In this document: one piece after another, positions 959-47,895 of the stretch | How positions within the stretch are numbered: the stretch's first letter is position 1 | How the letters are laid out: the number at the start of each line of letters is the position of its first letter | Source: a virus | Virus record (IMG/VR): IMGVR_UViG_3300036900_000045 | Location: 1 to 49,485 of that record | Length of the DNA stretch: 49,485 bases | Direction: 5' to 3' (one strand) | Translations under genes and position numbers: made by a program | Notes under the pieces: generated by a model | Database searches by the model: none | What the model saw: the letters and a program-made list of their open reading frames with translations, nothing else | What the model was told of the DNA's origin: nothing

Positions 959-1218
959 GACTGGTCCTCCATATCGTCTGCGTTGAGGTCGATCAGTTGC
1001 TTAAGTAGCTCGGCTTGGCCTACAGCATGGGCTACAGCTATCGAAGTCTGGTAGGAAGTATCCTTAATGAACTCCCTATTGCAGAACGACTCCTGAATCG
1101 CCCCCAGTTGCTCCACCAGCCGCGCCCAAACCCGGCGCGTTACCGAGTCCGAACGCCAGCGGTTGAACTCCAGCGCCGCCGCCGTTACTTCCTTGGCTTG
1201 TTCCTGTTCCTGTGTCAT
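955..1218 (-). CDS. Small late protein of unknown function overlapping portal
   Basis: The 87-residue protein starts at ATG 1218 behind a plausible ribosome site (AAGGAT) and ends in an ATGA overlap with the GroES-like gene. Its first 143 nt lie inside the portal gene in another frame, which is an unusually long overlap for this compact genome. The product is mostly helical by composition, begins with a Gln/Glu-rich segment and ends Asp-rich. I recognise no family. The coupled stop/start to the next gene is the main argument that it is real. Confidence 0.6.
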   Translation of the reverse strand: MTQEQEQAKEVTAAALEFNRWRSDSVTRRVWARLVEQLGAIQESFCNREFIKDTSYQTSIAVAHAVGQAELLKQLIDLNADDMEDQS

Positions 1219-3235
1219 TGGCGTTATCCTTGTGCAATTGCAAGAGGTCGGTTAGCACTTCAATGCTGCGCAGCATCCCCTCTTGACGGACCTGCGCGGC
1301 GTTAATTGCGGCGTTGATCTTAGCTACTTCGGCGTAGTCCTGCTCGCTCGCGGCATTCGCGGCGTGTTCTTGAGCCTGCGCGTACAGATTAGTGATGCGG
1401 GCGTAGGTTTCCTGCACGTCCAATTGCAGCCGGATACGCTTTTCTTGCATCCCGGACTGAAGCTCAAGGTATTGCAGTTGCAGCTTTTGGCTATCGACCT
1501 GCACCTTCATCATTTGCGGGTTGGGTTGCGGCGGCGTCGCGTTCTTAGAGCCCGCGCCGGGGAAAATAGTGTCGATATCGGTCACGCCGAAGGCCCGATA
1601 GTAGCGGCGGACGACCGCGTCGATGTTATGGCCGGGGACGGTGGACGCGGTTTGGAAAACAAGCTGGGCTTGGGCGCGTTTTTGGCTATCCGTAACGATA
1701 TTCGGGTCCGCGACGGGCATAACGCCGTAGTCTTCAGCTTGGTAGTCCTGTTCCGACACCTTAAACCACTTCCCATCGCGCCGATACTCGCCTTCGATGG
1801 GGTTGCGGCGGTTAAGGAGGTAGAATTTGCGGAATTCTTCCTTAGTTGCGCGGTGAATGCGCTTAAAAATGGCCGCAAACGTGCGCGAACCGTTCTCGTT
1901 AAGGATTTGGACTACCTCGGACTTAGCGTTTTGCCCCAGCGCCTCGCCAAGTTGGACCTCATTGGCGCTGCTAATGCGCGACGCAAAGTCAACGAGGAAC
2001 GTTAGAAGCTCTAAAAGGACGCGGCTGGGCTCCCTAACGTCGAGGGGGTAGATGGATTTGCGCAGATCGTCGCCGGTCGAGTCAACAACCTTCCACTCGA
2101 AGGGCGTAAAGGCCGTTGTACCCTTCTTGATGCGGACGCCGCGCCCAAGGAATCCGCCGCCGAGGGTCGCCATCGTGCCGCCGTCGATCAATTGATTGAT
2201 TAGGCTATCGACGGAGTCGTTGAGCGGGCCAATTAGGCTGCCGAAACCAACATCGTAGAAGCCGCCGTCCGGCGACGGGATGAACGGAATTTTGGTGTAG
2301 CACTGTTCGGCCGTAATGCGGCGGACCGTGCCACTGGACCCGGACTTGTAGGTAATGTCACGAGGGCGATAGCGGGTGATGATGCGGCGCACCTTGCCCG
2401 TAACGCGCTCAATGACCACCGTGTAAGGCTCGTCATAGCCGTCGTGGTCGAGGTCGAGCATACATTGTTGCTCGATGAACGCGAGGCTAAGGGATGGGGT
2501 GGGCGCGGGTTGGGGCGGGTTGACGCCTTGGGCCTTATTGCGGGCGGCTTCAAGGGCGTCGATGGACGGGGCGGGCGGCGACTTAGTCCCCTCAAGCCAC
2601 AAACCCTGCAATTCGTAGTCCGTAACCTCCTGCCGCGTCCGCTCAAACATCTCGCTAATACGGGGGCAAGTGTCGAGGCTCGACGTGTAGTAGTGGACTA
2701 CGAGGTTTTGCGGCAGCACGAGGTCGCTGCGGCGCTGGCGGCTAATCGGGTCGTAGTAGGTCTTCTTAAAGACCGTGCCGAGGATCGGGAGCGCGATTAG
2801 GCCCTTATCGGTTTCGGCCTCCCAGTTAGTGCATTCCTGCAATTGGTAAGACATATGGCCGCCGATGCGGGCGCACCGATCAATCTCGGAGTCCGGGGGA
2901 TCGACGCCGACCGGGACGCAATGGACCGCGCCTTGCGCCGGAACGAGGGCCGGGTAGGCTTTGCTATGGAAGCTAATGGCGCTGATGGTAAGGAGGGGGA
3001 ATTTGACGTTGGAGCAATTAGGCCATGGATAGGTCTTGTTCTCCATGACCTGTAAGGCCGTATTAAGGACGCGGGCGTAGCGGGCCTCCCACGCGGCGCG
3101 GCTCGTCTTATCCTCCTCGAAGCCGTGCAAGCACCATTGGCCGATTAGATTGCGGTCCTCCTCGCTCATGTTAGCAGCGAGGTTAGGCTGCAGGGACATT
3201 TCGGCGGGCACGCCGCGATAGGTTAGTTCAAGCAT
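1076..3235 (-). CDS. Portal protein
   Basis: At 719 residues this matches the P22-type portal length (about 725). It forms the dodecameric ring at the capsid vertex through which DNA enters and leaves. Support comes from size, position directly after large terminase, and the N-terminal layout with an aromatic MENKTYPWPNCSNVKFPLL segment (residues 64-82) typical of podovirus portals. The C-terminal third is a long Gln/Ala-rich helical region (roughly 575-670), consistent with a portal barrel, followed by a Gly-rich tail. The start ATG overlaps the stop of the small upstream membrane gene (TAATG). Confidence 0.85.
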   Translation of the reverse strand: MLELTYRGVPAEMSLQPNLAANMSEEDRNLIGQWCLHGFEEDKTSRAAWEARYARVLNTALQVMENKTYPWPNCSNVKFPLLTISAISFHSKAYPALVPAQGAVHCVPVGVDPPDSEIDRCARIGGHMSYQLQECTNWEAETDKGLIALPILGTVFKKTYYDPISRQRRSDLVLPQNLVVHYYTSSLDTCPRISEMFERTRQEVTDYELQGLWLEGTKSPPAPSIDALEAARNKAQGVNPPQPAPTPSLSLAFIEQQCMLDLDHDGYDEPYTVVIERVTGKVRRIITRYRPRDITYKSGSSGTVRRITAEQCYTKIPFIPSPDGGFYDVGFGSLIGPLNDSVDSLINQLIDGGTMATLGGGFLGRGVRIKKGTTAFTPFEWKVVDSTGDDLRKSIYPLDVREPSRVLLELLTFLVDFASRISSANEVQLGEALGQNAKSEVVQILNENGSRTFAAIFKRIHRATKEEFRKFYLLNRRNPIEGEYRRDGKWFKVSEQDYQAEDYGVMPVADPNIVTDSQKRAQAQLVFQTASTVPGHNIDAVVRRYYRAFGVTDIDTIFPGAGSKNATPPQPNPQMMKVQVDSQKLQLQYLELQSGMQEKRIRLQLDVQETYARITNLYAQAQEHAANAASEQDYAEVAKINAAINAAQVRQEGMLRSIEVLTDLLQLHKDNANDTGTGTSQGSNGGGAGVQPLAFGLGNAPGLGAAGGATGGDSGVVLQ

Positions 3236-3362: not shown

Positions 3363-4976
3363 CTAGTATCCAGTGGTTAGGTTGCGGCCCGCGGGCGGCT
3401 GCCACAGGTCAAAGTCGCCGTCCCAGCGGGAGCGCGGCGCGGCCTGATCGGCCTCGTCGTTAGAATCTTGGGCATCCGGGCCGCCTTCGTGCAGGTCCTC
3501 AAGTAATAGCCCAAGAATGGACTGGGCGTCAACCTGATCGTCGTGCGCGGCGCGAGGGAACCGGGTCATTTCTTCCTGTAGGTTAAGGAACCAGTCCGCG
3601 TTGTGGTTATAGAAGACGTGGTGGGCGCGGGTCGCCGATTGCCAAGCGCGGGCGCGCTGCCGCTTATCCTTAGTCGAGGCGATCTTGTAGGGGCTAATGT
3701 AGCGTCCGCTAGTGCGCTGCGCCTCGTTAAGGAACGGTTCAATGGACTTTTCAATAACGCCCTTCTCGAAGGCGTGGAACTCGGGCTTCCATGTCTTTTG
3801 AACGTTAAGTATTTCCTCAACGATCTCCATGCCGTCCATACGGCCGCGCCGCACGTCGAGGACATACTTAAGGCCCTGTGCATCAACCCCGACGACAACA
3901 CAGACGGTGTAGTCGCCCCGGTCGTCCTTAGTTACCGCGAGGTCCCACCCCGCGTAGCGCCGCAGCGTCGCGTCCGTTAATGGGTTTGAGCCCTCCGGGT
4001 AGGGCAGCAAATCAGTCCGATAAAAGTATGCGTCCTGCTCTGATACGGGATTATTAAGGTATTCCTGCGAATAGCCATCAGGATCGCCTCGTTCCACAAA
4101 GGATTGTCGCTTATCCTGAAACCATTGGGCATCATACTTGGAAGGCCAAAGGACATTACTGAAGTCGTCAAAGCCTTCATGCGCCTTATAGCGCTTCGCG
4201 TGCCATACCTTCTCCGACCGGAGGCACTTCTCAAGGAAGCTATCGAAGTGGAGCACCGTTCCGACGACACGGTAGAGGCAGCCGTTCTTCTTGCCGGCCG
4301 GGATGGCCGCCCGCATGACCCATTTGCTAAATTTTTCGCGCCGCTCTTTCGACTCAACTTGTTCATCCTCCTCAACGTCGTCGAAGATCATTAGGTCCGG
4401 GCGCAGCGACTTCCATTTAAGGCCGCGCATCTTCTGTTCGGCGCCCCGCGCCACAATGCGGAACGTGTAGCCGTCCGCTAGCTGGACGATAAGGTTGTTC
4501 TCGCTGTCCTTAAGGAACCGGACGATTTGGAAGTCGCGCCGCAGGTCGTCGTTCTCGCTAAGCTCTTGCGCAATGCCGCGTAGGAACTCGACGGCGATTT
4601 CGTAGGTTGAGCTAATGATAACGCAGAACTGCCGCTGCCGGAACAGCATGCAGGCTAGCGTATAGGCGTGGGTAACGGCGGTGGACTTAGCGTGGTCGCG
4701 CGGCGCGGCGATAGCTACGAATTGGCGCGGGCTGCAACACATATCCCACCATTCGATGTGACACGGCGGGGATGCAACGGGCTCGTCGTAGCCCGCATAG
4801 AGATAGCGTAAGCAAAAGCCCCCGATGATGCTGCTGTTAAGGGGGATGATGGGCCGCCCGTCGCCCCGGCTGGGCGCGGACTGCTCGTCCCACCCCGGCG
4901 CAAGGAAGTCCGGCGCAAGCCCCTTAGTCCTGCGGTTGCCGCCCTCGCGCGCCAGCCCCTGCCCCCGCATTACCAT
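3363..4976 (-). CDS. terL: Terminase large subunit (packaging ATPase-nuclease)
   Basis: The 537-residue motor protein pumps DNA into the head and cuts it. A Walker A-type loop, AAPRDHAKST, lies at residues 90-99, and Walker B LMIFDDVEED at 195-204 with the catalytic acidic residue. The C-terminal RNase H-like nuclease shows GWDLA (Asp345), a following GDYT (Asp355) and HDDQVDA (Asp479/480 and Asp483). YSQEYLNNP (302-310) is common in this terminase group. The start at 4976 follows a 434-bp non-coding region; small terminase lies upstream of it on the same strand. Confidence 0.93.
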   Translation of the reverse strand: MVMRGQGLAREGGNRRTKGLAPDFLAPGWDEQSAPSRGDGRPIIPLNSSIIGGFCLRYLYAGYDEPVASPPCHIEWWDMCCSPRQFVAIAAPRDHAKSTAVTHAYTLACMLFRQRQFCVIISSTYEIAVEFLRGIAQELSENDDLRRDFQIVRFLKDSENNLIVQLADGYTFRIVARGAEQKMRGLKWKSLRPDLMIFDDVEEDEQVESKERREKFSKWVMRAAIPAGKKNGCLYRVVGTVLHFDSFLEKCLRSEKVWHAKRYKAHEGFDDFSNVLWPSKYDAQWFQDKRQSFVERGDPDGYSQEYLNNPVSEQDAYFYRTDLLPYPEGSNPLTDATLRRYAGWDLAVTKDDRGDYTVCVVVGVDAQGLKYVLDVRRGRMDGMEIVEEILNVQKTWKPEFHAFEKGVIEKSIEPFLNEAQRTSGRYISPYKIASTKDKRQRARAWQSATRAHHVFYNHNADWFLNLQEEMTRFPRAAHDDQVDAQSILGLLLEDLHEGGPDAQDSNDEADQAAPRSRWDGDFDLWQPPAGRNLTTGY

Positions 4977-5044
4977 AACCGGCCCTTTATTTTTTGCGCA
5001 GCGGTAAGGGGTGGCATATGCAAATTTTGCAGTTCGAGGGTTTT

Positions 5045-5058
5045 CCCCCCTAGGGGGG
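5045..5058. repeat. 14-bp perfect palindrome CCCCCCTAGGGGGG
   Basis: Six C, TA, six G. As RNA it could fold only with a very tight turn, and no T-tract follows on either strand, so it is a poor intrinsic terminator. As DNA it is a symmetric protein site candidate just upstream of large terminase. Its centre is CTAG, one of the YTAR words. Confidence 0.7.
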
Positions 5059-5122
5059 CTAAGGCTAAGGCGCGGTCGGCGCTTAGAGGCAGCGCAGCTG
5101 GGCCGGAGCTTAGGCTAACAGG

Positions 5123-5139
5123 TTGGCACGGCCATTGCT
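5123..5139 (+). promoter_or_regulatory. Sigma-54-type (-24/-12) promoter, perfect consensus match
   Basis: TTGGCACG-GCCA-TTGCT matches the sigma-54 consensus YTGGCACG-N4-TTGCW at every fixed base, with GG and GC elements at the correct spacing. It would fire rightward from about 5150, antisense to small terminase and the helix-turn-helix gene, toward the rightward block at 6334. An 11-bp core (GGTTGGCACGG) recurs at 6231-6241 in front of that block. Whether sigma-54 really uses it is untested; it may instead be a phage-specific repeat. Confidence 0.5.
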
Positions 5140-5410
5140 TAGCGGTTAGGCTAGCAAGCAATGTGCCATGGTAACTTGTTAACTTAAGGTAGCACGTTAG
5201 CATTGGAGGCTAAGCTATTGATTGTTGCACTGCACAACGATAGTGAGTGCTAACGATAATAGGCTATAGGACGCGAGCTAAGGGGCCTAGGAGGCGGGCG
5301 CAAGTTAGCCTAAGCAAGGGTAAGGGCCTAAGCCTTAGCGTAGCGCCTAGCGCGTCCTGAGCGGTTTCACTATTTTGGTGCATTGCTTAAAGATTAAGCG
5401 CCTGTAAGGC

Positions 5411-6622: not shown

Positions 6623-8122
6623 ATGGCAACCAGATACGGGAAGTGGAGCGGTTATCTGCCTAACGGCGAGCGCGTTGTTACCGGCCGTAAGCATTGGGCT
6701 GCGCCAGACGATAACCTGCCGGTGCAAGTGGGAGAGGAGATTACGCTGGTAAGCAAGAAAGGCGCGGCGGTTGTCGTGACGGTGCGCACCACGGCACAAG
6801 GCAAATGGGGGCCGATGTTCACGTTCGACTACGTTGCGCCGAGCCAACAGAAGCAAGCTATCCCGGAGTCCGTTGACCCGTTCGAGGATACGCGCACCGT
6901 GGAACAGGCGGCGACACAAGCCGCGCAACCCATCATCAACGCCATGGCCCCTCCCATTACGGCCGGTAGCGATGCCGATGCCAAACTCAAACAGGCGGGC
7001 GCATTGCTCCAATCCCTGTTGGGCGGGTTCGATGAGGCGAAGGTCCGGGAGGTTGTTAACGCCACGGTGCAACAGGCCGTGCAGGGCGCGTTGCAACAGG
7101 CAAAAGATGAATCACGGACCATCAGCGACCAGTCACGCGCCCTTGTTAACGCCATCCAGACGGCCGACGCGAACATTCGTAAGGCTGAGGAAACCGCGCT
7201 GCAGATCGTCGCGGATATGGACCGGATTGCGGCCGACGCACTTGCCCGCGCTGCGATGCAGGTCGCTAAGGCTAACGCGCCTCTGATCCTGCAAGTGGGC
7301 ACTAAAACGCCTGTAGCGCTCAAGGATCACACGCACCCGCTGTTTGCCAAGATCGCGGCCCTTGTCGCTATCGGAGGCGTCAATATCCTCCTGATCGGCC
7401 CGGCCGGGTGCGGTAAGACCCATATGGCGCATCAATTGGCGAGCGTGTTCGAGCGGAAGTATGGCACCGTGCATTGCACGGCGGGCATGAGCGAAAGCGC
7501 TGTTGCGGGATGGCTCCTGCCCATCGGCGATAACGGGCGCTTTTCCTACACGCCTAGCGAATTCGTTACGCTGTATGGGGAAGGCAACAGCATTTTCCTT
7601 ATCGATGAAATCGACGCGGCCGACCCCAACGTGTTGATGTTTCTAAACGGGGCGCTTGCTAACGGGGCGCTGCATATCCCGCACCGGCTTGATAACCCGG
7701 TCGTACAGCGCGGCCCAAACCAAACCATCATCGCAGCGGCTAACACGTTCGGAACGGGCGCTAACAGACTCCACAGCGCCCGTAGCGCCTTGGACGCGGC
7801 AACCCTTGATCGGTTCTATCCCGTTGTCATGGATTACGACAAGGCGCTAGAGGCCAACCTGTTGGGGCTGCCCGTTCCGGCTAACGAAGCATGGGTTCCG
7901 TCCGACGCGCCCACGGAGCGAGAGCTTCAGGAACTTGGGCAGTGGGTTATCGCGCTGCGCGAGACGGTTAAGCAAAACCCCGGCATCCAGCGCATTGTGT
8001 CAACGCGGACTATTCAGAAAGCGCTGTTGGCCCGGAAGGCTGGCCTATCGTCGCGTGAGATTAAAACAGACATTCTCGCGGGGTGGTCCAAGGATGAGCT
8101 TGCTAAGGTCAGGGGGCTTTAA
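6623..8122 (+). CDS. MoxR/CobS-like AAA+ ATPase
   Basis: The 499-residue protein has a variable N-terminal half (a small beta-rich start, then a long Ala/Gln-rich helix, residues 115-215) and an AAA_5-type ATPase domain. Walker A is GPAGCGKT (259-266), Walker B FLIDEID (325-331), the sensor 1 region AAAN (371-374), and DRF with a likely arginine finger follows near 396-398. This class (MoxR, CobS, NorQ) usually works with a von Willebrand A partner to remodel another protein. The next gene, joined by a TAATG overlap, may be that partner. The coding sequence from 6660 to about 7045 is poor in YTAR, so the N-terminal part may be a newer acquisition. Confidence 0.8.
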   Translation: MATRYGKWSGYLPNGERVVTGRKHWAAPDDNLPVQVGEEITLVSKKGAAVVVTVRTTAQGKWGPMFTFDYVAPSQQKQAIPESVDPFEDTRTVEQAATQAAQPIINAMAPPITAGSDADAKLKQAGALLQSLLGGFDEAKVREVVNATVQQAVQGALQQAKDESRTISDQSRALVNAIQTADANIRKAEETALQIVADMDRIAADALARAAMQVAKANAPLILQVGTKTPVALKDHTHPLFAKIAALVAIGGVNILLIGPAGCGKTHMAHQLASVFERKYGTVHCTAGMSESAVAGWLLPIGDNGRFSYTPSEFVTLYGEGNSIFLIDEIDAADPNVLMFLNGALANGALHIPHRLDNPVVQRGPNQTIIAAANTFGTGANRLHSARSALDAATLDRFYPVVMDYDKALEANLLGLPVPANEAWVPSDAPTERELQELGQWVIALRETVKQNPGIQRIVSTRTIQKALLARKAGLSSREIKTDILAGWSKDELAKVRGL

Positions 8123-8940
8123 TGGAATCCTTTCTGTATAACAGCATTGCAGACTACACGGCGGATATTCAGCGCGGGATGGCTGTTGCATCGCAGCATA
8201 ACCGTGGCGTGTTCGAGCACTACAAACAATGGACGCAATCACAGAGCGGATGGTTCGGCCCCTTCAAGTCCGATTGGGCAGCCGCAGAACGCGCTATTAC
8301 GGAAGACTGGCCGGAAGGTCGGGAGACGGTGCAGCGCCTTGCCGACAGCCTTCGGAATCAGGTTGCGCTGCCTCAGAACGTTGCCAGGCGCATTCGCCGC
8401 TGCGACCAAGGGGACAGCCTTGAGTATCACGATGTATTAGCTGGAAGGCTCGGGACCGCATGGCGCAAGGCCAAACGGGACCGCATAGCCCTTGCGCCGA
8501 CCGAGATTTGGCTAACCTGTTTCAAGGGGATGAGTGGTAGCCAACATGGCGACATACTCCAATGGCGCGGTGCGGCTGTTACGGCCCTTGCCGACCTGCT
8601 AACAGAGGCGGGTTATAACGTTGGCATCCTTGCCTATGCGGACCATGAACACCCGGTTCAAGGTATGGACTCGCACGTCGAGATAATCGTTAAAGACCCT
8701 CTCGCGCCGATCAACATGCAGACCTTGGTATCGGCCTTAGTCAATCCGGGGTTTCATCGCATTCTGCATTTCCAATGGTGTTGCAGTCGTACTAACAAAG
8801 CTCACGATGGGTTCGGGGCTAAGCGGCCCCACGCTTACCCCGATACGCATATCCAAGGGACGGAGGAGCTTCAAACCGAGTCCGACGCAAGGGACTATCT
8901 TGTAAGCACCTTAGCGCGGATTCAGGGGGAAACACAATGA
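8122..8940 (+). CDS. Partner of the AAA ATPase, possible VWA-like (DUF7192-like) protein
   Basis: The 272-residue product is translationally coupled to the ATPase (TAATG). Its C-terminal half alternates hydrophobic strands and helices, for example PTEIWLTCFKGMSG, AGYNVGILAYAD and SHVEIIVKDP, an order seen in von Willebrand A-like domains that pair with MoxR/CobS ATPases. A complete metal-binding DxSxS site is not visible. I recall similar phage proteins grouped as DUF7192, but that needs a profile search. Inferred role: substrate adaptor or effector of the ATPase. Confidence 0.55.
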   Translation: MESFLYNSIADYTADIQRGMAVASQHNRGVFEHYKQWTQSQSGWFGPFKSDWAAAERAITEDWPEGRETVQRLADSLRNQVALPQNVARRIRRCDQGDSLEYHDVLAGRLGTAWRKAKRDRIALAPTEIWLTCFKGMSGSQHGDILQWRGAAVTALADLLTEAGYNVGILAYADHEHPVQGMDSHVEIIVKDPLAPINMQTLVSALVNPGFHRILHFQWCCSRTNKAHDGFGAKRPHAYPDTHIQGTEELQTESDARDYLVSTLARIQGETQ

Positions 8941-14509: not shown

Positions 14510-15438
14510 TGCCTAACCTCCTGTCAACGGCCATCCCTTTGGCCTTTCCCGCCGTGGTCGATAACACTATGATTACGGCTTACCGCTCCTGCCCTAAGAA
14601 GTTTTGGTGGGGCTATATGCGCCAGTTCGCGCCTACGGCCGAGTCCGTCCACCTTCACGCGGGAGCAGCGTTCGCTAAGGGCCTTGAGGTTACGCGCCGC
14701 GAGTGGGCCGACAACGGCCGCAGCTTTGAGGACGCCATTGCGCTCGGCGGCGCGGCACTGTTGGCGCACTACGGCCACTTCGAGCCCTTCGAGGCCGATA
14801 ACGGCAAGTCCGCCCTCAACATGCTCGGCGCGTTGGGCTACTACTTCAAAACGTGGCCCATCGACACGCCAAACCTTAAGCTCTACAAGGCCCCCGACGC
14901 GAACCGCCACGCTATCGAATACGCGCTAGCCGTCCCGATCCCCGACTTCTTGCACCCGACAACGGGCGATCCCCTTATCTACGCGGGCCGCTTCGACAGC
15001 ATTATGATCTGGCGCGATTCTATGTTAGTCGGGGAGGACGACAAGACCGCCACGCAGCTAGGCAAGTCGTGGGTTAACGGTTGGCGCTTAAGCAACCAAC
15101 TGTTAGGTTACACATGGGCTTGCGGTCAATACGGTATTAAGCTCGGCGGCTTTAACGTGCGCGGCGTCGGCCTTTATAAAAACGACTACGGCCAAATGGA
15201 ATCGCTGCAAATGATCCCGCGATGGAAGCTCGAAGTCTTTTACACCGAGCTACTGGCTACCCTCGCGGACATGCGCCGCTCTTGGGAGTCCGGGCATTGG
15301 CGTAAGGACCTCGGAGACGCTTGCAAGGCTTACGGCGGCTGCCGTTACGTTACGCTGTGCGACAGCCAATACCCTGAAGATTGGTTGCAGGGGAACTACG
15401 TGCTGCATAAATGGAATCCACTGGCGAGCCGTGACTGA
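14509..15438 (+). CDS. Fe-S cluster PD-(D/E)XK exonuclease (Cas4/AddB-like)
   Basis: The 309-residue protein has the RecB-family nuclease motifs in order: YRSCPKKFWW (25-34, Cys28), HAGAAF with a conserved His (His50), GRFDSI (Asp163), GEDDKTA (Glu176/Asp177 and Lys179) and a Q motif helix (QLLGYTWA, Gln197). Cys272, Cys278 and Cys284 near the C-terminus, with Cys28, make the four-cysteine 4Fe-4S signature of Cas4 and AddB nucleases. Likely role: single-strand end resection for recombination-dependent replication, together with the Sak4-like and SSB-like genes downstream. GTG start. Confidence 0.82.
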   Translation: MPNLLSTAIPLAFPAVVDNTMITAYRSCPKKFWWGYMRQFAPTAESVHLHAGAAFAKGLEVTRREWADNGRSFEDAIALGGAALLAHYGHFEPFEADNGKSALNMLGALGYYFKTWPIDTPNLKLYKAPDANRHAIEYALAVPIPDFLHPTTGDPLIYAGRFDSIMIWRDSMLVGEDDKTATQLGKSWVNGWRLSNQLLGYTWACGQYGIKLGGFNVRGVGLYKNDYGQMESLQMIPRWKLEVFYTELLATLADMRRSWESGHWRKDLGDACKAYGGCRYVTLCDSQYPEDWLQGNYVLHKWNPLASRD

Positions 15439-15769
15439 CTTTAAGGTAGGGCAATCCGTAGTTTACATCGGCACAAGCTGGGGCAAGGTCCTTAAAGGTG
15501 CTATTGGGACCGTTAAGGATCAGTCTCCTAACAAGGATTGTGTTATAGTCCACTTCCCCGACACCTTTGGTCAGTTAGGTTACCAAACAGGCATTTATGG
15601 TCCCGACTGCATTAACGTCTTTAAGTATAACGTTGAGGTGCTAGTAACTGAACCAACGCCGCCCGCACCTATAACCCTCAAGCCTACCCCCGCCCTAACC
15701 GACCCTCTCGCCGTTTATATCCTTGAACGGCTCACCGAATTAAGAACCCAACGAAAGGCCGCGCAATGA
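15431..15769 (+). CDS. Unknown 112-residue protein, SH3/KOW-like start
   Basis: GTG at 15431 overlaps the nuclease gene by 8 nt. The first 70 residues are beta-rich (KVGQSVVYIGTSWGKVLKGAI and GTVKDQSPNKDCVIVHFPD) and resemble a small SH3-like barrel. A Pro-rich linker and a C-terminal helix with LERLTELRTQRK follow. The fold call is from pattern only. Confidence 0.6.
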   Translation: MTDFKVGQSVVYIGTSWGKVLKGAIGTVKDQSPNKDCVIVHFPDTFGQLGYQTGIYGPDCINVFKYNVEVLVTEPTPPAPITLKPTPALTDPLAVYILERLTELRTQRKAAQ

Positions 15770-16014
15770 GCCGTGCATCCCGCTTCGTTATCGTCCCCCG
15801 CGACATTCAAACCGGCGCGGACAGCTTTAAGCGCGTCTACGATATCGACCTGCAGAGCGCCAACCGCCAGACCCTAATGTATGGCAACCAAGGCTACACG
15901 CGGTTACGGGACGCGCACCGCGCCGTCGATCTAATCCGCAAGGTCGCCAGCGAAGCCATCATTACGCTAGGTCGCCCCCGCATCGATCGTTCACTTTTGC
16001 CAAAAGAGGACTAA
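15766..16014 (+). CDS. Unknown 82-residue protein
   Basis: ATGA-coupled to the gene before. The product begins MSRASRFVIVPRDIQTG and carries a central helix with basic and acidic faces; Arg-rich overall. No motif recognised. Confidence 0.6.
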   Translation: MSRASRFVIVPRDIQTGADSFKRVYDIDLQSANRQTLMYGNQGYTRLRDAHRAVDLIRKVASEAIITLGRPRIDRSLLPKED

Positions 16015-16017
16015 GCC

Positions 16018-16470
16018 ATGACTCCCGAACAAGCCGATAACTTCCGAGTCCTGATCCGTCACATGCGGACCAACGTAAATCGCGTCCTAAACATGGACCA
16101 ATTCTTGACTGAATGCGGCACTCCTGCCTGTGCGTTAGGGGAATGCCAACTTATATTTGGGTGGAAAGAGGCCCAAATGATCCGCGAAATGAACTGTGAC
16201 AGCCCTGAGTTTGGCTTAGAAGACGAAGAAATTAAGGCGTTGTTCGGCACAGAGTCGGTAAACATGTGGCGATGCGACACAGTAGGCCCCCAAGAATGGG
16301 CCGATGAAGCCGAGAGCGTCCTTAACGCTCACGGCTATACCTTAGACCCGGTCGCCCCGGTCGGGGTCGTATACGACCCCGATAAGATCGCCGCCCAGTC
16401 CTTCCTTTCCCGCCTCCGCTGCCTCGCGGACGCCCCAGTTATCCCCTCTGAAGCTAAGGAACCGCAGTGA
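16018..16470 (+). CDS. Unknown 150-residue phage protein
   Basis: The product begins MTPEQADNFRVLIRHM and contains CGTPACALG (residues 33-41) and several conserved-looking Trp and Glu positions. Similar proteins occur in many phage replication regions without an assigned role, as far as I recall. Ends overlapping the GTG of the Sak4-like gene. Confidence 0.65.
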   Translation: MTPEQADNFRVLIRHMRTNVNRVLNMDQFLTECGTPACALGECQLIFGWKEAQMIREMNCDSPEFGLEDEEIKALFGTESVNMWRCDTVGPQEWADEAESVLNAHGYTLDPVAPVGVVYDPDKIAAQSFLSRLRCLADAPVIPSEAKEPQ

Positions 16471-19752: not shown

Positions 19753-20033
19753 ACCGGCGCGGCTTCTTGCAGAGCTGTATAGCGCTGGCTGCGGCCCCGG
19801 CTATCGTCCGTGCCGACAGCCTAATGCGTGTAATCCCGCGCGAGGCTACCGTAATTCTGCCACAGGGCTTTGGGCTAGCACAGATTAAACGAGAGGGATC
19901 GAGCATCCCTTACATGACAATTGACGAGGCCCAGATGGCTAGTGCGACCGTAATTGGTCGTTATTGGCCTAAAGGCCATCGCTTTGAAGTTATAGAGACG
20001 TATAATGCGCTGCCAAGCCGTAGGCCCCGCTAA
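19749..20033 (+). CDS. Tat-signal protein, second of two tandem paralogues
   Basis: 94 residues with MNRRGFLQSCIALA and APAIVRADSLMRVI matching the preceding gene almost exactly through residue 29. At the nucleotide level the two copies differ at many third positions, so the signal has been kept by selection at the protein level rather than by recent duplication. The mature part is short and beta-rich. The gene overlaps the polymerase start by 29 nt. Confidence 0.68.
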   Translation: MNRRGFLQSCIALAAAPAIVRADSLMRVIPREATVILPQGFGLAQIKREGSSIPYMTIDEAQMASATVIGRYWPKGHRFEVIETYNALPSRRPR

Positions 20034-21669
20034 CGCTCGGATCGCCCTTATCGGGGAAGCCCCCGGCGAACAGGAAGACCGCGACGGCATGCCGTTCGTC
20101 GGCTCCGCAGGGCAGGAGCTTGACCGCATGTTAGCCGACGCCGGTATTGCCCGCGCCGACTGTTGGATAAGCAACTGCGTTCAAACGCGCCCGGAAAGGA
20201 ACGACATTGACCTGTTCATTAACCCCAAGAAAACGCGCCGCGAGGGCGAAGTCCGGTTCCGCGACAAGTGGGTCGCGCCCCATGCCGCCGCCGACCTTGA
20301 GGCCCTGTACAGTGCGCTTGCGGAACTTAAACCGGCGGTTATTGTCGCTCTCGGCAACACTGCCCTCTGGGCGCTCACTAATTGCAAAAGTGTCGATAAA
20401 TGGCGGGGTAGCATATTATCGTGTAACGCGCCGGGGCTGGACGGCATTACCGTCATTCCAACCTACCACCCTGCGGGCGTCCTCCGGCAATACGCGTGGC
20501 GTCAGATTACGATTAACGACCTACGCCGTGCCGCCGCTGTAGCCGCCGACCCGAGCGGTTACATTATTGAGGAACCCGAGCGCCGCTTCATCCTTAACCC
20601 TGATTACGATAAGGTGTGTCATACACTGGGCTTCATTAGGGATATCGTTCTTGCCACGCCTAGCCGCCTAATCTGCGACCTTGAGATTAAGCGCAATGAA
20701 ATAGTCTGCCTAGGGCTGGCGTGGAGCCGCCACGACGCTATTTGCATCCCGTTCTACAACGAGCGCGGCCGCACCTTCACAGCCGAACAGTCCGCTTACA
20801 TTTGGGATTTGCTTAACGCGATCTTCAACCATCCCAATTGTAAGCTGTCTAACCAGAACATCAGCTTCGATATCCAGTTCTTGTATGAAAAGGCCGGACT
20901 GTGGCCCAAGGCGCACTTCGATACTATGGTCGCGCAAAACGTCCTGTTCCCCGGCACCCCCAAGTCGCTCGATTACCTCGCCTCGATGTATTGCGACTGG
21001 TATCGATATTGGAAGGACGACGGCAAGTTCTGGGATAAGCCCATCGTGTTCCCGCAGCTATGGCATTACAACTGCCTCGACTGCGTCTACACGTATGGGG
21101 TCCAAGAGAAACAGGAGCTTGCATTAGCGCAGCTTAACCTCGAATCCCAGAACCGCGAACAGGTCCGCATCCTTAACCACGCGATCACCATTATGTTCCG
21201 GGGCGTCCGCGTCAACAACGCCCGCAAACAAACCCTACGCCGCGAGCTTCTTAGCTTACGCGAGGGCCTAGTAACCGAGGCCGAGCTTCTTGCTTCTATT
21301 AAGCTAACAGGCGACAAGGGCGGCTTTAGCCCTCAAAAGCTAAGCAAGTTCTTCTACACCCGGCTCGGCCTTAAGCCCATCATGAAGCGCACTAAACTGG
21401 GCATGAAAGTAACCTGCGACGACGACGCTATGCAGGAAATAGGCAAGCGCGAGCCGCTACTGTTCCCCCTAACAAGCCGCATCAACTTAGTGAGGTCCTA
21501 TGACACCGCTATTGAAGCTGTTGAGGCTCGTGTTGATCGTGATGGCCGTTGGCGTTGTAGCTATAACATTGCGGGAGCTAATACTTTCCGCTTCAGCAGC
21601 GCTACAAACCCATTCGGAAGCGGCCTCAATCTACAAAACCTTACTGCCGGTAAGGAAATAACGAAGTAA
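20005..21669 (+). CDS. Uracil-DNA glycosylase fused to the N-terminal part of a split family A DNA polymerase
   Basis: 554 residues. Residues 1-185 are a family 4/5-type uracil-DNA glycosylase: GEAPGEQED (17-25), PFVGSAG (30-36) and TYHPAGVLR (153-161). The usual N-terminal Cys pair for the Fe-S cluster is absent or shortened. Residues 220-375 are a DEDD 3'-5' exonuclease (Asp225/Glu227, Asn283-Asp289, YNCLD with Asp359). Then comes the polymerase thumb and the first conserved motif FRFSS...LNLQN (528-545). It stops at residue 554, before motif A; the palm and fingers are encoded at 23959-24756. An in-frame TAG just upstream fixes the start near 20005. The glycosylase could remove uracil ahead of synthesis. 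Confidence 0.85.
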   Translation: MRCQAVGPANARIALIGEAPGEQEDRDGMPFVGSAGQELDRMLADAGIARADCWISNCVQTRPERNDIDLFINPKKTRREGEVRFRDKWVAPHAAADLEALYSALAELKPAVIVALGNTALWALTNCKSVDKWRGSILSCNAPGLDGITVIPTYHPAGVLRQYAWRQITINDLRRAAAVAADPSGYIIEEPERRFILNPDYDKVCHTLGFIRDIVLATPSRLICDLEIKRNEIVCLGLAWSRHDAICIPFYNERGRTFTAEQSAYIWDLLNAIFNHPNCKLSNQNISFDIQFLYEKAGLWPKAHFDTMVAQNVLFPGTPKSLDYLASMYCDWYRYWKDDGKFWDKPIVFPQLWHYNCLDCVYTYGVQEKQELALAQLNLESQNREQVRILNHAITIMFRGVRVNNARKQTLRRELLSLREGLVTEAELLASIKLTGDKGGFSPQKLSKFFYTRLGLKPIMKRTKLGMKVTCDDDAMQEIGKREPLLFPLTSRINLVRSYDTAIEAVEARVDRDGRWRCSYNIAGANTFRFSSATNPFGSGLNLQNLTAGKEITK

Positions 21670-21692
21670 ATGGAACGAGGAGAGGGACGTAA

Positions 21693-22070
21693 ATGTATAG
21701 AACCCCGGTTGCACAAATGACGCTCGCCGAACGGCTGCGTCGGTATTTCGAGGACACCGATACCGTCTTGTCGGTGCTCTCCGAGCAGATGCGCCACGAC
21801 CTTCAACAAGCGGCCGACGAGCTGGAGCGCCTTTACGCGATCCCTGAGCCCGACGTGAAGGCGATGGTGGATCGCTTCCTCTGCTGGAAGCTGCCGCAGG
21901 ATTTCGGCCCGGACTGCGGCATCAGCTTCGATGGCCGTAAGGACGACGAGTGGAACAAGAACAAGACGTGGCCGGTCGGCACGAACCTGTTTACCGCTGA
22001 CCAAGCGCGGCAGATGGTCGAACACATGCTCGCGTCCGATAAGCCTGCGGAAAGGGATTCGGATGCCTGA
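21693..22070 (+). CDS. Unknown 125-residue protein, first gene of the polymerase insert
   Basis: ATG 21693 follows GAGGAGAGGGACG. An N-terminal helix (residues 10-45) precedes a compact domain with FLCWKLPQDFGPDCGISFDG (62-81) and WPVGTNLFTADQARQMVEHM (93-112), a pattern I recall from many proteobacterial phages and prophages, where its role is unknown. No YTAR word occurs in its 378 bases, unlike the flanking polymerase parts. Confidence 0.7.
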   Translation: MYRTPVAQMTLAERLRRYFEDTDTVLSVLSEQMRHDLQQAADELERLYAIPEPDVKAMVDRFLCWKLPQDFGPDCGISFDGRKDDEWNKNKTWPVGTNLFTADQARQMVEHMLASDKPAERDSDA

Positions 22071-22191
22071 CGTTTACTACCGGACGTGCAACGAAGTCGT
22101 CCTCTACGGGTTCCTGTTTTGGGCCGACTGGCGGGCGGCGCTGGCTATCTTCGCGCTGCACACGCTCTGGAACATCGTGCATGTGAAATGA
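22063..22191 (+). CDS. 42-residue hydrophobic peptide
   Basis: ATG 22063 follows GAAAGGGATTC. Residues 11-40 are hydrophobic and aromatic (VVLYGFLFWADWRAALAIFA), suggesting one or two membrane passes. ATGA overlap with the next gene. Function unknown. Confidence 0.55.
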   Translation: MPDVYYRTCNEVVLYGFLFWADWRAALAIFALHTLWNIVHVK

Positions 22192-22391
22192 CGTTTACCG
22201 CCCCATTGGTCCGCGATACGGTCAGCACGGTCGGGCCGCCGCACGCGAACGCGGCGCGGCTCTACGCGGAGGCCGACGAAATTCTCAATGAGCCGGAGCT
22301 CGCCGAACTTCTGCGCCAAGCGGCGGCGTTCCTTGAGTTCGATCAACTCGAAATCATCGCGCTCCGCGAGCGCCTTAAAGTTGCACGATGA
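22188..22391 (+). CDS. Unknown 67-residue helical protein
   Basis: ATG 22188 makes an ATGA overlap with the preceding stop. Almost entirely helical (ARLYAEADEILNEPELAELL), it probably forms a dimeric coil. No motif recognised. A 21-nt gap follows before the next gene. Confidence 0.6.
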   Translation: MTFTAPLVRDTVSTVGPPHANAARLYAEADEILNEPELAELLRQAAAFLEFDQLEIIALRERLKVAR

Positions 22392-22412
22392 GATTGCGGA
22401 AGGGCGCGAATA

Positions 22413-22604
22413 GTGGAACCGCTCACGCTTTTGGAACGCTTCGTGGCGTGGCTCTGGACACCTTACGTCTGGACTCAATGCACGGCATCGCATCCGCTTC
22501 CCGGAGGCGAGTGCTACTGCCAGCGCCGCCGCGGGCACCGTGGGCCGCACCGCGATTGGCGCGGCGACTTATTTACTGAGGATGTGAAAGGCGTCTCGAA
22601 ATGA
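22413..22604 (+). CDS. 63-residue Cys/His protein
   Basis: GTG start at 22413. Contains Cys23, then CYC (34-36) and RRGHRGPHRDW (39-49), a Cys/His cluster that can bind zinc and that I recall from small phage proteins. A competing frame on the same strand (22388-22579) lacks such features. Ends ATGA-coupled to the next gene. Confidence 0.6.
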   Translation: MEPLTLLERFVAWLWTPYVWTQCTASHPLPGGECYCQRRRGHRGPHRDWRGDLFTEDVKGVSK

Positions 22605-22804
22605 ACGAAGCCCCTACTTGGAGTGAGGTGCTGCTGGAAAACTGGAGGGCAATGGGCTGGACCGCTATCGGGTTGCTCATGGCCGGGATAACTGGCTACG
22701 ACCTTGGTGCGGGGCAACCACTTACGGCGTGGTGGTGGGCCGGTCTAGTGTGCGTGATCGCATGGCCCTTTATTGTGCGCGAGGAGTATGCCGTAAACCG
22801 TTAA
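22601..22804 (+). CDS. 67-residue membrane protein, two spans
   Basis: Hydrophobic segments at about residues 18-36 (GWTAIGLLMAGITGYDLGA) and 42-60 (LTAWWWAGLVCVIAWPFIV), joined by a short polar loop. Ends in a basic RNR-like tail. Function unknown. The next gene begins directly after the stop (TAAATG). Confidence 0.65.
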   Translation: MNEAPTWSEVLLENWRAMGWTAIGLLMAGITGYDLGAGQPLTAWWWAGLVCVIAWPFIVREEYAVNR

Positions 22805-22969
22805 ATGGACCCGCTCCGCGCCGCCCTTGAGGCTAATATCCGTTTCTTCGAGCGCCTAGGCGAGGTCTGCTACGGCCACGCCCGCCACCTTGAGGGTTTG
22901 CTCGATAAGCCCCCTGACGCTAGGACCGCCGCCCCTAAACCAACCCTACCCGACGACATTTTAGGATAA
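22805..22969 (+). CDS. Unknown 54-residue protein
   Basis: Begins directly after the preceding stop. A single helix (RAALEANIRFFERLGEVC) is followed by a Pro-rich tail ending PDDILG. The gene carries YTAR words at backbone density, unlike the genes on either side of it, so it may be an older resident. Confidence 0.55.
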   Translation: MDPLRAALEANIRFFERLGEVCYGHARHLEGLLDKPPDARTAAPKPTLPDDILG

Positions 22970-22972
22970 CTT

Positions 22973-23152
22973 ATGGCCCTCACCACCATCGAACAGCTTG
23001 GAACCCAGTTGACTCATAACCTGCAGCGGGGACTCCGAGCCGCCGCCCACGGTAACTACCAAGACGCCGCTGACCGCATTAGGGAAGTCGAATCGCTGGC
23101 GCAAGTGCTTAAGGCGCACCTTGAGGGGTTGGTTAAGGAGACAGGGCAATGA
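22973..23152 (+). CDS. Unknown 59-residue helical protein
   Basis: ATG 22973. Two amphipathic helices (TIEQLGTQLTHNLQRGLRAA and a second from residue 37 to 55) suggest a helical hairpin. ATGA overlap with the next gene. No function assigned. Confidence 0.55.
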   Translation: MALTTIEQLGTQLTHNLQRGLRAAAHGNYQDAADRIREVESLAQVLKAHLEGLVKETGQ

Positions 23153-23757
23153 GCGACACACCACGGATAGATAAACTCCTTCGGCATCGCCTCAACACGA
23201 ACGGCGGCGACGACTCGGTGCCGCTCCGCGAGTTGATTGGGCAGGCCCACGACGAGATTCGCCGTTTGGACGCCTACGCAGGGGCTCTCGCGGAGGCGGC
23301 TTTCGAAGCCGTGCGCGAATGGAACAGCGTGAGGGAACTCGAAGATTTCGTTCCGCGCATCCAAGCCCTTGCGCGGGCGCTCGAACGTCATCAAATGGGG
23401 CACGAAAAGGAACGGCGCGAAACCGAGGCGCATATCGGGCTGCGAGAGCTTCGGACGCCGGGAATCACGGCGGTCGTCGTGAACGGTAAGACGTGGCGAT
23501 GCCATCCCGCTGAGAACCCCGCGAGCGTATCGGACCCGCTCAACATCGGCCCCGAACGGCTGGCGCGGATATTCCATGAAGCCTACGAAAAGTGGGCTCC
23601 GCTGTGCGGCTACGAAACGCGGCTTGAAACGCGCGACTTCGACCCGACAACCCCGAACGGGAAGCTGATGATTGCGACCTGCGGAGAGGTTATCGCCACG
23701 CTGCAAACCAGCCACAATGAGAACGCCGTGAACCGTTCGGAGGGTTCAAATGGGTGA
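23149..23757 (+). CDS. Unknown 202-residue protein in the YTAR-free block
   Basis: A helical N-terminal half is followed from about residue 118 by a mixed region (KTWRCHPAENP, then RLARIFHEAYEKWAPLCGYE). I recall the FHEAYE..A...GY pattern from phage hypothetical proteins. No YTAR word occurs in 609 bases, and codon choice is closer to an ordinary GC-rich genome, so recent transfer is likely. Confidence 0.65.
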   Translation: MSDTPRIDKLLRHRLNTNGGDDSVPLRELIGQAHDEIRRLDAYAGALAEAAFEAVREWNSVRELEDFVPRIQALARALERHQMGHEKERRETEAHIGLRELRTPGITAVVVNGKTWRCHPAENPASVSDPLNIGPERLARIFHEAYEKWAPLCGYETRLETRDFDPTTPNGKLMIATCGEVIATLQTSHNENAVNRSEGSNG

Positions 23758-23959
23758 AATAACTGAAATGATATTCGACGGGACGCTATGCCAAGTCTGC
23801 GGCACGTTCCTTAACGAAGACCCTCCCGGCTATCCATGCTCCTGCGACGACTGCGCGAGGTTGCAACGGCCTTCGGCCCCGAAGGTGGCTTGCCCAACAT
23901 GTGGTAAGCGCGTTAAGGTAGTTGGGCTGGCCGATCATTGGCGTGACGCGCATAAATAA
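23750..23959 (+). CDS. Cys-rich 69-residue zinc-finger-like protein
   Basis: Three Cys pairs: CQVC (14-17), CSCDDC (30-35) and CPTC (48-51), with a closing H-x4-H (63-68). CPTCGKRV...LADHWRDAH is a classic C2H2 finger. The stop overlaps the ATG of the polymerase C-terminal part (TAATG), so translation of that half depends on this gene. Confidence 0.7.
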   Translation: MGEITEMIFDGTLCQVCGTFLNEDPPGYPCSCDDCARLQRPSAPKVACPTCGKRVKVVGLADHWRDAHK

Positions 23960-24756
23960 TGAACCTCCTTACCGGCCGCCTCCCTAACCTCCGCGAGCTA
24001 ATAATCCCGGACCCCGGCTATGTCATTGTTGACATGGACCTTAAGCGCGCCGATATGTGGGTTACGGCGTGGGAGGCCGAGGACGATTATTTTAAGGAAC
24101 AGTTGCGTGAGGAAGAGCGGGACCCTAGTAAGGACGTTCACGATAGTAACTGCATCGACATATTCGGCGACGCCGCTTACAACCCTGACGGCACTATTAA
24201 CAAGCAGAAACGCCGCGATGCTAAAGTGTTCGGCCATGGCAGCGATTACCTTGCGCAGCCGCCCGCCCTTGCTAAGCAGTGCGGCACCACGCTCGCCGTC
24301 GCCCAAGCCGCCCAAGCTAAGTGGTTCGCCAAGCACCCCGGCATCCCTAAGTGGCATCAGCGCGTCCGTGATACCGTGTGGCGCACCCGTTCCATTAGCA
24401 ACAAATTTGGCTATCGCATCAAGTTTTTCGACCGCGTTGATAACTGTATCCCACAGGCTTGCGCGTGGGTCCCGCAATCGACGGTCGCCCTTGTCATTAA
24501 CAAAGCCTTTTGCGCCATCGCGGAGCAGTTGCCCAAGGTCGAGGTCCTGCTGCAGGTCCACGATAGCCTAACCATGCAAATCCCAATCGGCTCCGAACAG
24601 GAGCTTATCCCTCAAATCGAGGCCCTTAGCTTAATTCCCATCCCCTACAGCGACCCCTTAACGATTCCCGTTAGCTTCAGTGTGAGCGGCGAGTCGTGGG
24701 GCAAGGTGTGGGAATGGGAGAAAACGGAGGAAAGATGGCAACCGAAGACAAAGTAG
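23959..24756 (+). CDS. C-terminal part (palm/fingers) of the split family A DNA polymerase
   Basis: 265 residues starting just before LPNLRELIIPDPG (8-20). Motif A is DLKRAD (Asp27, Asp32), motif B RRDAKVFGHGSDY (85-97), motif C VHDS (200-203; the usual fourth residue is Glu, but the catalytic Asp202 is present). Together with 20005-21669 this completes one polymerase, so the two polypeptides must associate. It has no clear ribosome site of its own and is coupled to the preceding gene by TAATG. Confidence 0.88.
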   Translation: MNLLTGRLPNLRELIIPDPGYVIVDMDLKRADMWVTAWEAEDDYFKEQLREEERDPSKDVHDSNCIDIFGDAAYNPDGTINKQKRRDAKVFGHGSDYLAQPPALAKQCGTTLAVAQAAQAKWFAKHPGIPKWHQRVRDTVWRTRSISNKFGYRIKFFDRVDNCIPQACAWVPQSTVALVINKAFCAIAEQLPKVEVLLQVHDSLTMQIPIGSEQELIPQIEALSLIPIPYSDPLTIPVSFSVSGESWGKVWEWEKTEERWQPKTK

Positions 24757-24974
24757 TTAAAGCAGTCCGTGTTGCGCAGTGGATTTGGCTGTCGTTCTGG
24801 CGCTGGATTTGGCAATGGCGGCTGGAACATGCGCGGCGCTTCCGGCATAACCTCGAAGGCACCATCATCGCTGAGCGCATCCGCGCCGACTACGCCGTCG
24901 ATTACGCCGAGCGTATGGTCGAGCAGTTGGACCGCGAAGCTACGTTCGCCGAGGCGCGGTCGGAGGCGGCGTAA
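24735..24974 (+). CDS. Unknown 79-residue protein, Trp-rich start
   Basis: ATG 24735 follows GGAGG and lies inside the polymerase gene's last 22 nt. Residues 12-31 contain six Trp (IWLSFWRWIWQW), which could sit at a membrane surface, and the rest is a charged helix. Function unknown. Confidence 0.6.
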   Translation: MATEDKVVKAVRVAQWIWLSFWRWIWQWRLEHARRFRHNLEGTIIAERIRADYAVDYAERMVEQLDREATFAEARSEAA

Positions 24975-25426
24975 TGAGCGTAATCGCGTGGGACGGTAAA
25001 ACGCTAGCGGCCGATAGGCGCTGTCTTAATAACGGCCTTATTATGACCACCACCAAGATTCGCCGTATTAAACGGCGCGGGGTTGAAACGCTGTTAGGCT
25101 GGACTGGAGACCAAGACGCGGGGGAATATTTAGCTGAATGGTATACTGGATGCGGGACTGCCGCCGAGTGGCCCGACTGTCAAAAAGATAAAGACAGTTG
25201 GTCACGTCTTATCGTCATTAACCCTGAAGGCGTGTGGACTTACAGCCAACAACCGATTGCCATAAAGATGGAAGACCTGTTTATGGCGTGGGGCAGCGGC
25301 CGGGACTTCGCTATTGCGGCAATGCACTTAGGTAAGGACGCCGTCGAGGCCGTCAAAGTAGCCTCGCGCTTCGAGACCGGATGCGGGAACGGCTTCGACC
25401 ACCTTGCGTTAGGAGAACCTGAATGA
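24974..25426 (+). CDS. Ntn-hydrolase / proteasome beta-like phage protein
   Basis: 150 residues beginning MSVIAWDGKTLAADRR, which resembles the N-terminus of HslV/proteasome beta-like phage proteins where residue 2 becomes the nucleophile (here Ser). Later, INPEGVWTYSQQP and AWGSGRDFAIAAMHLGKDAVEAVKVASR follow the strand-helix order of that fold. Such proteins are frequent in phages of proteobacteria; their substrates are unknown. One-base overlap with the preceding stop. Confidence 0.65.
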   Translation: MSVIAWDGKTLAADRRCLNNGLIMTTTKIRRIKRRGVETLLGWTGDQDAGEYLAEWYTGCGTAAEWPDCQKDKDSWSRLIVINPEGVWTYSQQPIAIKMEDLFMAWGSGRDFAIAAMHLGKDAVEAVKVASRFETGCGNGFDHLALGEPE

Positions 25427-46597: not shown

Positions 46598-46614
46598 TTT
46601 TAAGGCTCCTAAGT

Positions 46615-46637
46615 GCGCTAGATTGAGGAACTAGCGC
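46615..46637. repeat. 7-bp-arm hairpin upstream of the 46597 gene
   Basis: GCGCTAG-ATTGAGGAA-CTAGCGC. No U-tract; it ends a few bases before the ribosome site of the LamG-like gene on the minus strand. Possibly an mRNA stability or processing element. Confidence 0.45.
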
Positions 46638-46681
46638 CAGACCCCGTTAAGGGAGAGGCGCAAATAGGAGGATGCTTTAAG

Positions 46682-46774
46682 CTACTTACCGGGCATCTTC
46701 GGAACCGGCTTAATGGGGTAGGGTTGCGCGGGCTGCGGAACGGTCGGCGGATCGGTGCGGCGCTGTCTATTCAC
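46682..46774 (-). CDS. 30-residue Pro-rich peptide
   Basis: GTG at 46774 follows a perfect GGAGG. The product, NRQRRTDPPTVPQPAQP..., is basic then Pro-rich and resembles short peptides seen near phage capsid genes. The frame stays open to 46900 (72 residues), but that longer form lacks a ribosome site. Confidence 0.5.
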   Translation of the reverse strand: MNRQRRTDPPTVPQPAQPYPIKPVPKMPGK

Positions 46775-46917
46775 GGTAATGCCTCCAAAGTTTAGATTAC
46801 GCTGACGATGTGCCGGGGAGTCTTTAATGCACATTAGCCCCCTATCGTCAACGGCTGTTTCGACTGGAGGGGTGTCCTTAATAGCGTTAAAGCTGCACAT
46901 GGTTAAGATTACTAGCC

Positions 46918-46937
46918 AAAGGGGCCGGAGCCCCTTT
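46918..46937 (-). terminator. Terminator-like hairpin after the capsid gene
   Basis: AAAGGGGC-CGGA-GCCCCTTT has eight pairs and ends in a short T-run on the minus strand. It lies 20 nt after the capsid gene's stop, so it may reduce transcription into downstream late genes and protect the abundant capsid mRNA. Confidence 0.7.
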
Positions 46938-46956
46938 AGTTAATACCTTAGCTTGC

Positions 46957-47895
46957 TTAAGGAGCGTTGACTCCGTAAGCGGTGCGGGGGTCGCCCCAGC
47001 CCATGCTATAACGCTCGACCGAGGCCGCTTTCGCGTTCTTCGTGTCGAAGTCGTTATCTTGGTCCAGCCCGCTCTTGTAGCGGTCGAAGCACACCAGTCC
47101 GCCCATCGAGGCCGGAATGTTGTTCTTCAAGAACCACGCGTTCGGCGACGTGAAGAAGTGGTTAACCGCGACGCCCTTGGGAATCGCGTTAAGCATCTTC
47201 ATCGCGTTGATATCGTTGTTGGCCGTTCCCGATTGGTAAACGGACTGAACAATACGCGTCGCGTTGTAGAGGTTGGAGCGATGAACAAGCAACCGCTCCG
47301 GTTGCACTTGGATGATAAGGCCGCGGTCGTTCGTGAACCCGGCGATATCGATAAGTGCGTCCTCCAAGCTGGCTTCCGTCAGGTCAGCATCGACGCTCGG
47401 TTTGTTAGCGTAGGTGCCGCCACTGATGCGGGGGTGGTCGGTGGCGAACAGCGGCTTACCGTCCGCGCCTAGGTACGCGGCGCTGTTGGTAAATCCGTTG
47501 TTGTAGATCGCCGCCGCGACCGTTTCCTTGGTCTGGCGCTGGCTGAAGGCATTCGCAGCGGCCCGACGCATCGACACCGCTTCATAGAGGTTGTCCTGCA
47601 GTTCCTCCATGGTAACGATGTAACCGAGTGCGTAGGTCACATGGACGAGGCGCGCAACGTAACCCTGTTGGTCCGCGTCATACGTGATGCCTTGGCCTTG
47701 AGGCTTGACTTGGGCGAGGCCGAATCCGATATCTTGGACCAGTTCCTCGTAGTTCTTTTCCGAAGGCATCGGGTCAACGAGCTTATCCCATTCCACGGGA
47801 TACTCGTTATAGACCTTGCCCCACCACACCTTAACGCCGGGCCACAGCGCTTTAGGGTGTGAGCCGGTGGTGATAACGCCGCCAACTCCGGGCAT
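46957..47895 (-). CDS. Major capsid protein (Mu gpT-like)
   Basis: 312 residues. The order VTMEELQDN (about 94-102), a central ATDHPRISGGTYANKPSVD segment, then LLVHRSNLYNATRIVQSVYQ (about 203-222) and AWFLKNNIP (254-262) match Mu gpT-type capsid proteins. The sequence contains no obvious cleaved scaffold domain, so a separate scaffold (gene at the join) is needed. YTAR words are relatively few here, perhaps because of codon optimisation for high expression. Confidence 0.75.
   Translation of the reverse strand: MPGVGGVITTGSHPKALWPGVKVWWGKVYNEYPVEWDKLVDPMPSEKNYEELVQDIGFGLAQVKPQGQGITYDADQQGYVARLVHVTYALGYIVTMEELQDNLYEAVSMRRAAANAFSQRQTKETVAAAIYNNGFTNSAAYLGADGKPLFATDHPRISGGTYANKPSVDADLTEASLEDALIDIAGFTNDRGLIIQVQPERLLVHRSNLYNATRIVQSVYQSGTANNDINAMKMLNAIPKGVAVNHFFTSPNAWFLKNNIPASMGGLVCFDRYKSGLDQDNDFDTKNAKAASVERYSMGWGDPRTAYGVNAP

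Follow-up and report, generated by a model that had tools for sequence, protein, structure and literature searches.

A strand-symmetric excess of TAA/TTA words throughout the genome of a GC-rich uncultivated phage

GC-rich genomes normally avoid TA-containing words, and the question raised by the genome of the uncultivated phage IMGVR_UViG_3300036900_000045 is why TTAA, TTAG, CTAA and CTAG, together the class YTAR, should crowd it in genes of either strand as well as in non-coding DNA, as an original prediction made by eye had claimed. The window analysed is this record taken entire (49,485 bases, 59% G+C), and the 127-bp direct terminal repeat at its ends indicates that the genome is most likely complete. 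Our own codon-scoring script yielded a set of 77 genes, with 91% of the sequence coding. Among these are the portal gene (1076–3235, minus strand) and the large terminase subunit gene (3363–4976, minus strand), both of which were used to find relatives, a DNA polymerase A divided over an N-terminal half with a uracil-DNA glycosylase domain (20005–21669, plus strand) and a C-terminal half (23959–24756, plus strand), and a likely major capsid gene (46957–47895, minus strand) matching the phrog_371 major head protein, as well as genes for head closure and tail fibre proteins, a Sak4-like annealing protein and a primase-like protein. The two genes of the family A polymerase (20005–24756) provide a glycosylase-exonuclease part and a palm part and are separated by a number of small ORFs and one ORF of 202 amino acids; a comparable split is found in Vibrio phage VS-ABTNL-3. 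Elsewhere, an AAA_5 ATPase gene of a type that occurs across many unrelated phages is directly followed by a DUF7192 gene (6623–8940), and the protein of 24974–25426, encoded between the polymerase and primase-like genes, matches an HslV-family peptidase PHROG (phrog_1040, E 3e-26).

The genome contains 798 YTAR sites, corresponding to 16.1/kb versus 10.4/kb expected from base composition. The genome-wide excess is thus real, and recounting the stretches that had been counted by hand returned the same numbers for 15421–16020 (15) and 23959–24756 (17), and 23 rather than 24 sites for 4977–5410. Its proper unit, however, is not the YTAR class as a whole. Genome-wide, TTAA occurs at 2.98x and CTAA/TTAG at 1.79x the base-composition expectation, whereas CTAG, put forward as one of the crowding words, is in fact depleted (0.54x overall and 0.45x in coding DNA), yet reaches 1.5x in non-coding DNA. 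Words outside the class are comparably strong (CTTA/TAAG 2.26x, GTTA/TAAC 2.15x), neither of the two strongest words (CCTTAA, TAAGGA) is a palindrome, and TAA/TTA, at 1.88x, tops all trinucleotides, with CTA at 1.00x. An order-1 Markov model gives z-scores of +6.6 for YTAR, +7.6 for TTAA, +6.9 for CTAA/TTAG and −5.8 for CTAG. With trinucleotides given, in an order-2 model, these become −2.2, −1.2, +1.4 and −7.3, respectively, and since the YTAR excess is then gone, the excess is one of trinucleotides with TAA/TTA as its unit. As a statement on tetranucleotides the original prediction does not survive this modelling; the trinucleotide excess stands.

Coding DNA was compared with synonymous-codon shuffles, a null that keeps proteins and codon usage. 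Words that begin at codon position 2 are in clear excess over these shuffles (CTAA 3.0x, z 18; TTAG 2.7x, z 12.6; TTAA 1.9x, z 11.5), and the nnYT|ARn class is found at 2.23x (z 27). At four-fold sites T has a share of 51% before AA, 39% before AG and 33% before TA, whereas the three GC-rich phages taken as controls have 10%, 14% and 16%, and ahead of most other dinucleotides the share of T is below that of the controls. The odds of T over C are 1.82 in Y_AR versus 0.38 where the next base is not A and, in the mirror context, those of A over G are 1.06 in YT_R versus 0.26 in YT_Y. Ahead of A, T replaces C and G in equal proportion, which is as expected from reduced loss of T and led us to reject simple C-to-T deamination. 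The bias is strand-symmetric (2.0x in plus genes, 2.5x in minus genes), an overall symmetry also seen in the control phages, and occurs in early as well as late genes, with values of 2.5x for the portal gene, 3.5x for the terminase gene and 2.4x and 3.0x for the N- and C-terminal polymerase halves. All 5-kb bins fall within 1.5–3.0x, and the exceptions to this evenness are the likely capsid gene and two dense spacers. The former is the only long gene without the bias (5 sites observed versus 5.0 expected, which are small numbers), the frequency of T before AR being 0.32 in this gene versus 0.54 in the others. Tetramer biases in coding and non-coding DNA correlate with r 0.68, or 0.53 when YTAR and GTAC are left out.

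As the excess concerns both strands and extends to non-coding DNA, the contention that codon choice is not its cause is borne out, and a process acting on double-stranded DNA, as had been proposed, is likely for a bias that is genome-wide, strand-symmetric and shared by coding and non-coding DNA. Selection at the level of translation, through codon pairs or hidden out-of-frame stops, would account for the out-of-frame TAA and TAG favoured at codon boundaries, but is refuted as main cause and is the least probable of the readings considered here. Hidden-stop (ambush) selection would favour every out-of-frame stop, whereas out-of-frame TGA is found at 0.89x even though 31 of the 77 genes end in TGA; codon-pair selection is rejected because antisense TTA is favoured as well and non-coding DNA is likewise enriched. 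Compared with the rule that nnUAnn codon pairs are the class most often avoided in 138 organisms from three domains (PMC2585594), the bias concerns the same words, with out-of-frame UAA/UAG on the sense or antisense strand, but has the opposite sign, these being favoured in the phage, and extends into non-coding DNA. It is also very improbable that the words reflect primer synthesis, with an unusual primase beginning primers at YTA on either strand. The phage carries a primase-like gene, YTAR presents YTA on both strands and CTA is the start site for several Gram-positive DnaG primases (PMC5429622), but this study names CTA and not TTA, while in the phage TTA is enriched far more than CTA, and plus and minus genes behave alike, as judged by gene strand rather than by replication direction.

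YTAR density amounts to 24.1/kb in non-coding versus 15.3/kb in coding DNA, in line with the claim that the excess is extreme in the former. Two spacers, however, contain 40 of the 106 non-coding sites, and the remaining non-coding DNA, at 18.3/kb, lies only slightly above coding DNA; it is mainly because of these spacers that non-coding DNA is the richer. The spacer upstream of the terminase gene (4977–5410) holds 23 sites (53/kb), the highest density of any 434-bp stretch in the genome; were its rate that of other non-coding DNA, at least 23 sites would occur with a probability of 8e-5, uncorrected for the choice of region. The spacer upstream of the likely major capsid gene (46598–46956) holds 17 sites (47/kb). 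The minus strand of 4977–5410 gives a better fold than 100 shuffled versions of it (z −3.3), by pairing of 12- and 14-nt complementary arms made of YTAR-type words. This fold is perhaps a by-product, since palindromic words favour pairing, and the spacer may possibly act as a structured RNA or as a packaging or replication site near the terminase gene. An Rfam search of the dense spacers returned no family and only weak miRNA matches.

These spacers are of relevance to the proposal that selection acts at the DNA level for binding or structure, in that a packing, replicating or silencing protein prefers TTAA/TAA steps, or that the sites are modified. The symmetric, genome-wide nature of the bias, the adjacency of the two densest spacers to the terminase gene and the capsid gene and the complementary arms within the first are all consistent with it, and a protein bound at TAA/TTA sites, as originally suggested, is possible. 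Spacing of YTAR sites, by contrast, displays no clear helical signal at 10–11 bp, and neither thymidylate-synthase-like nor modification genes were found in the proteins scanned, where many small proteins match nothing. In the thymine-hypermodified phages PhiW-14 and M6, moreover, the bias is the reverse of that seen here (TTAA 0.08x and 0.27x, TAA 0.23x and 0.26x, respectively), and phage CAjan is ordinary in its TAA/TTA bias. The idea of a modification site thus finds no support, and selection for binding or structure taken together we regard as doubtful.

The genome is further marked by extreme avoidance of restriction-type words. CCWGG occurs once (position 8384) versus 155 sites expected by composition and 72 by a Markov model, GTAC 26 times versus 180 expected, with zero occurrences in non-coding DNA, and CCCGGG, GTCGAC, GGGCCC, CTCGAG and AAGCTT are among the words that are absent altogether. 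Six-base palindromes number 434 versus 1,015 expected by the Markov model, a ratio of 0.43 that is the lowest of 27 sequences (0.47–0.95 for the others). Those centred on GC or CG are strongly depleted (221 versus 745 expected), whereas YTAR-centred ones are not avoided (104 versus 113). Among the proteins scanned there was no methyltransferase, and the pattern suggests hosts with many restriction systems. One could conceive that restriction or nuclease pressure purged the targeted words and left TTAA-type words behind as safe, and the depletions and the spared YTAR-centred palindromes are what this would look like. When the avoided words were purged in silico from shuffled genes, however, nnYT|ARn rose only from 207 to 213, compared with 483 observed, and the two strongest words, as noted, are not palindromic. 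In this form, the only one that was run, protection from a host nuclease does not generate the excess, and we disfavour it as rather improbable. The depletion of palindromes and of CCWGG resembles known restriction-site avoidance in phages, which accounts for the depletions but, by simulation, not for the TAA/TTA excess; the palindrome depletion is a separate property of the genome.

For comparison we took 258 viral stretches, for the most part IMG/VR entries related through three proteins, together with named phages, a set that is no random sample of phages. None of these shares the bias, the highest values being 1.13x for TAA, 1.41x for TTAA and 1.55x for nnYT|ARn, and stretches of at least 50% G+C have median values of 0.57x for TAA and 0.60x for TTAA. 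A search for relatives of the genome at the DNA level yielded none, and searches with single proteins were equally fruitless. The nearest phages have some 40–48% residue identity in terminase, portal or polymerase (best 48%), and the bias was present neither in relatives taken from portal, terminase and polymerase alignments nor in named phages with single genes in common. These comparisons also speak to the view that the words follow from ordinary composition, that is, from dinucleotide and trinucleotide frequencies and nothing else. The YTAR z-score of −2.2 with trinucleotides given is in its favour, but TAA and TTAA lie beyond the range of all 258 stretches and nnYT|ARn stands at z 27 over synonymous shuffles, so that we consider it highly unlikely and, insofar as the trinucleotide bias is itself exceptional, refuted. 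Somewhat unlikely as well, though less so, is a process specific to this phage, such as an error bias of the split polymerase or a TTAA-preferring packing protein, which would fit a TAA/TTA level about threefold that of comparable phages.

In being genome-wide, strand-symmetric and common to coding and non-coding DNA, the bias is like the genome signatures that phages share with their hosts; it is unlike them in direction and size (TAA/TTA 1.88x) and in that no matching host emerged. The host screen comprised about 1,250 genomes and scored the density of SYTTAARS, which served as a stand-in for YTAR, itself too short, and which also responds to AATT avoidance and low G+C. No host was found among these, and no mesophilic genome reaches the density of the phage (about 1,010 per Mb). 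Nor is this value attained in samples of six groups (the phyla or class of genomes G001, G002, G003, G004, G007 and G008), which we suggest to be Pseudomonadota, Alphaproteobacteria, Planctomycetota, Chloroflexota, Actinomycetota and Bacteroidota, in that order. Several genomes do reach it in the phylum of G005, a phylum to which the Aquificaceae genome G016 also belongs. One member of this phylum, G601 (55–61% G+C), resembles the phage in its high TAA (2.0–2.5x) and TTAA (2.9–5.2x) and in the frequency of T before AA (0.45), but is without the excess of T before AG, and AAA and AAG are high in it as well. G601 was rejected as host on the grounds that CTAG is nearly absent, that its tetramer correlation with the phage is only about 0.25 and that its proteins have a thermophile-like composition (IVYWREL 0.463, versus 0.360 for the phage). 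With AATT also almost absent and TGA strongly avoided, G601 carries an extreme signature in its own right. As G601 has the same kind of bias, such a bias can characterise an entire cellular genome.

Taken together, we favour, at a probability of roughly 0.45, a context-dependent mutation or repair bias that the phage shares with its host, although the screen of about 1,250 genomes yielded no such host. Of the four proposals made originally (a bound protein, a modification site, a context-specific mutational bias and nuclease protection) the mutational one fits best. The reasons are that the bias is even, symmetric and limited to free positions, that the gene with the highest expected expression lacks it, and that it has a cellular parallel in G601. 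The composition reached would be one in which T is favoured in Y_AR and A in the mirror YT_R, and where the protein leaves a base free these preferences would yield the TAA/TTA excess, TTAA above all. Such a bias would act on double-stranded DNA, with these words either losing T and A less often or arising more often, and would most likely stem from the way the host replicates and repairs DNA; selection acting on the capsid gene, and selection against restriction sites, would probably be superimposed on it. Lack of the bias in the capsid gene, within the small numbers given above, fits translational selection overriding a weak or neutral force. Against a uniform bias stand the two spacers, which are far denser than the rest and are left unexplained by it, and mutation and selection are not directly separable from the composition of a single genome.

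Few sequence biases are as widely shared as the avoidance of TA and of nnUAnn codon pairs, for which translation, RNA decay and effects at the DNA level are the competing explanations. The bias of this phage reverses the near-universal nnUAnn avoidance and runs counter to its relatives and to the majority of bacteria. With its strong preference for these words, which extends to both strands and to non-coding DNA, this GC-rich phage provides a natural counter-example by which those causes can be told apart and, if its host were found, would be a pointer to a directly testable mutation or repair mechanism.
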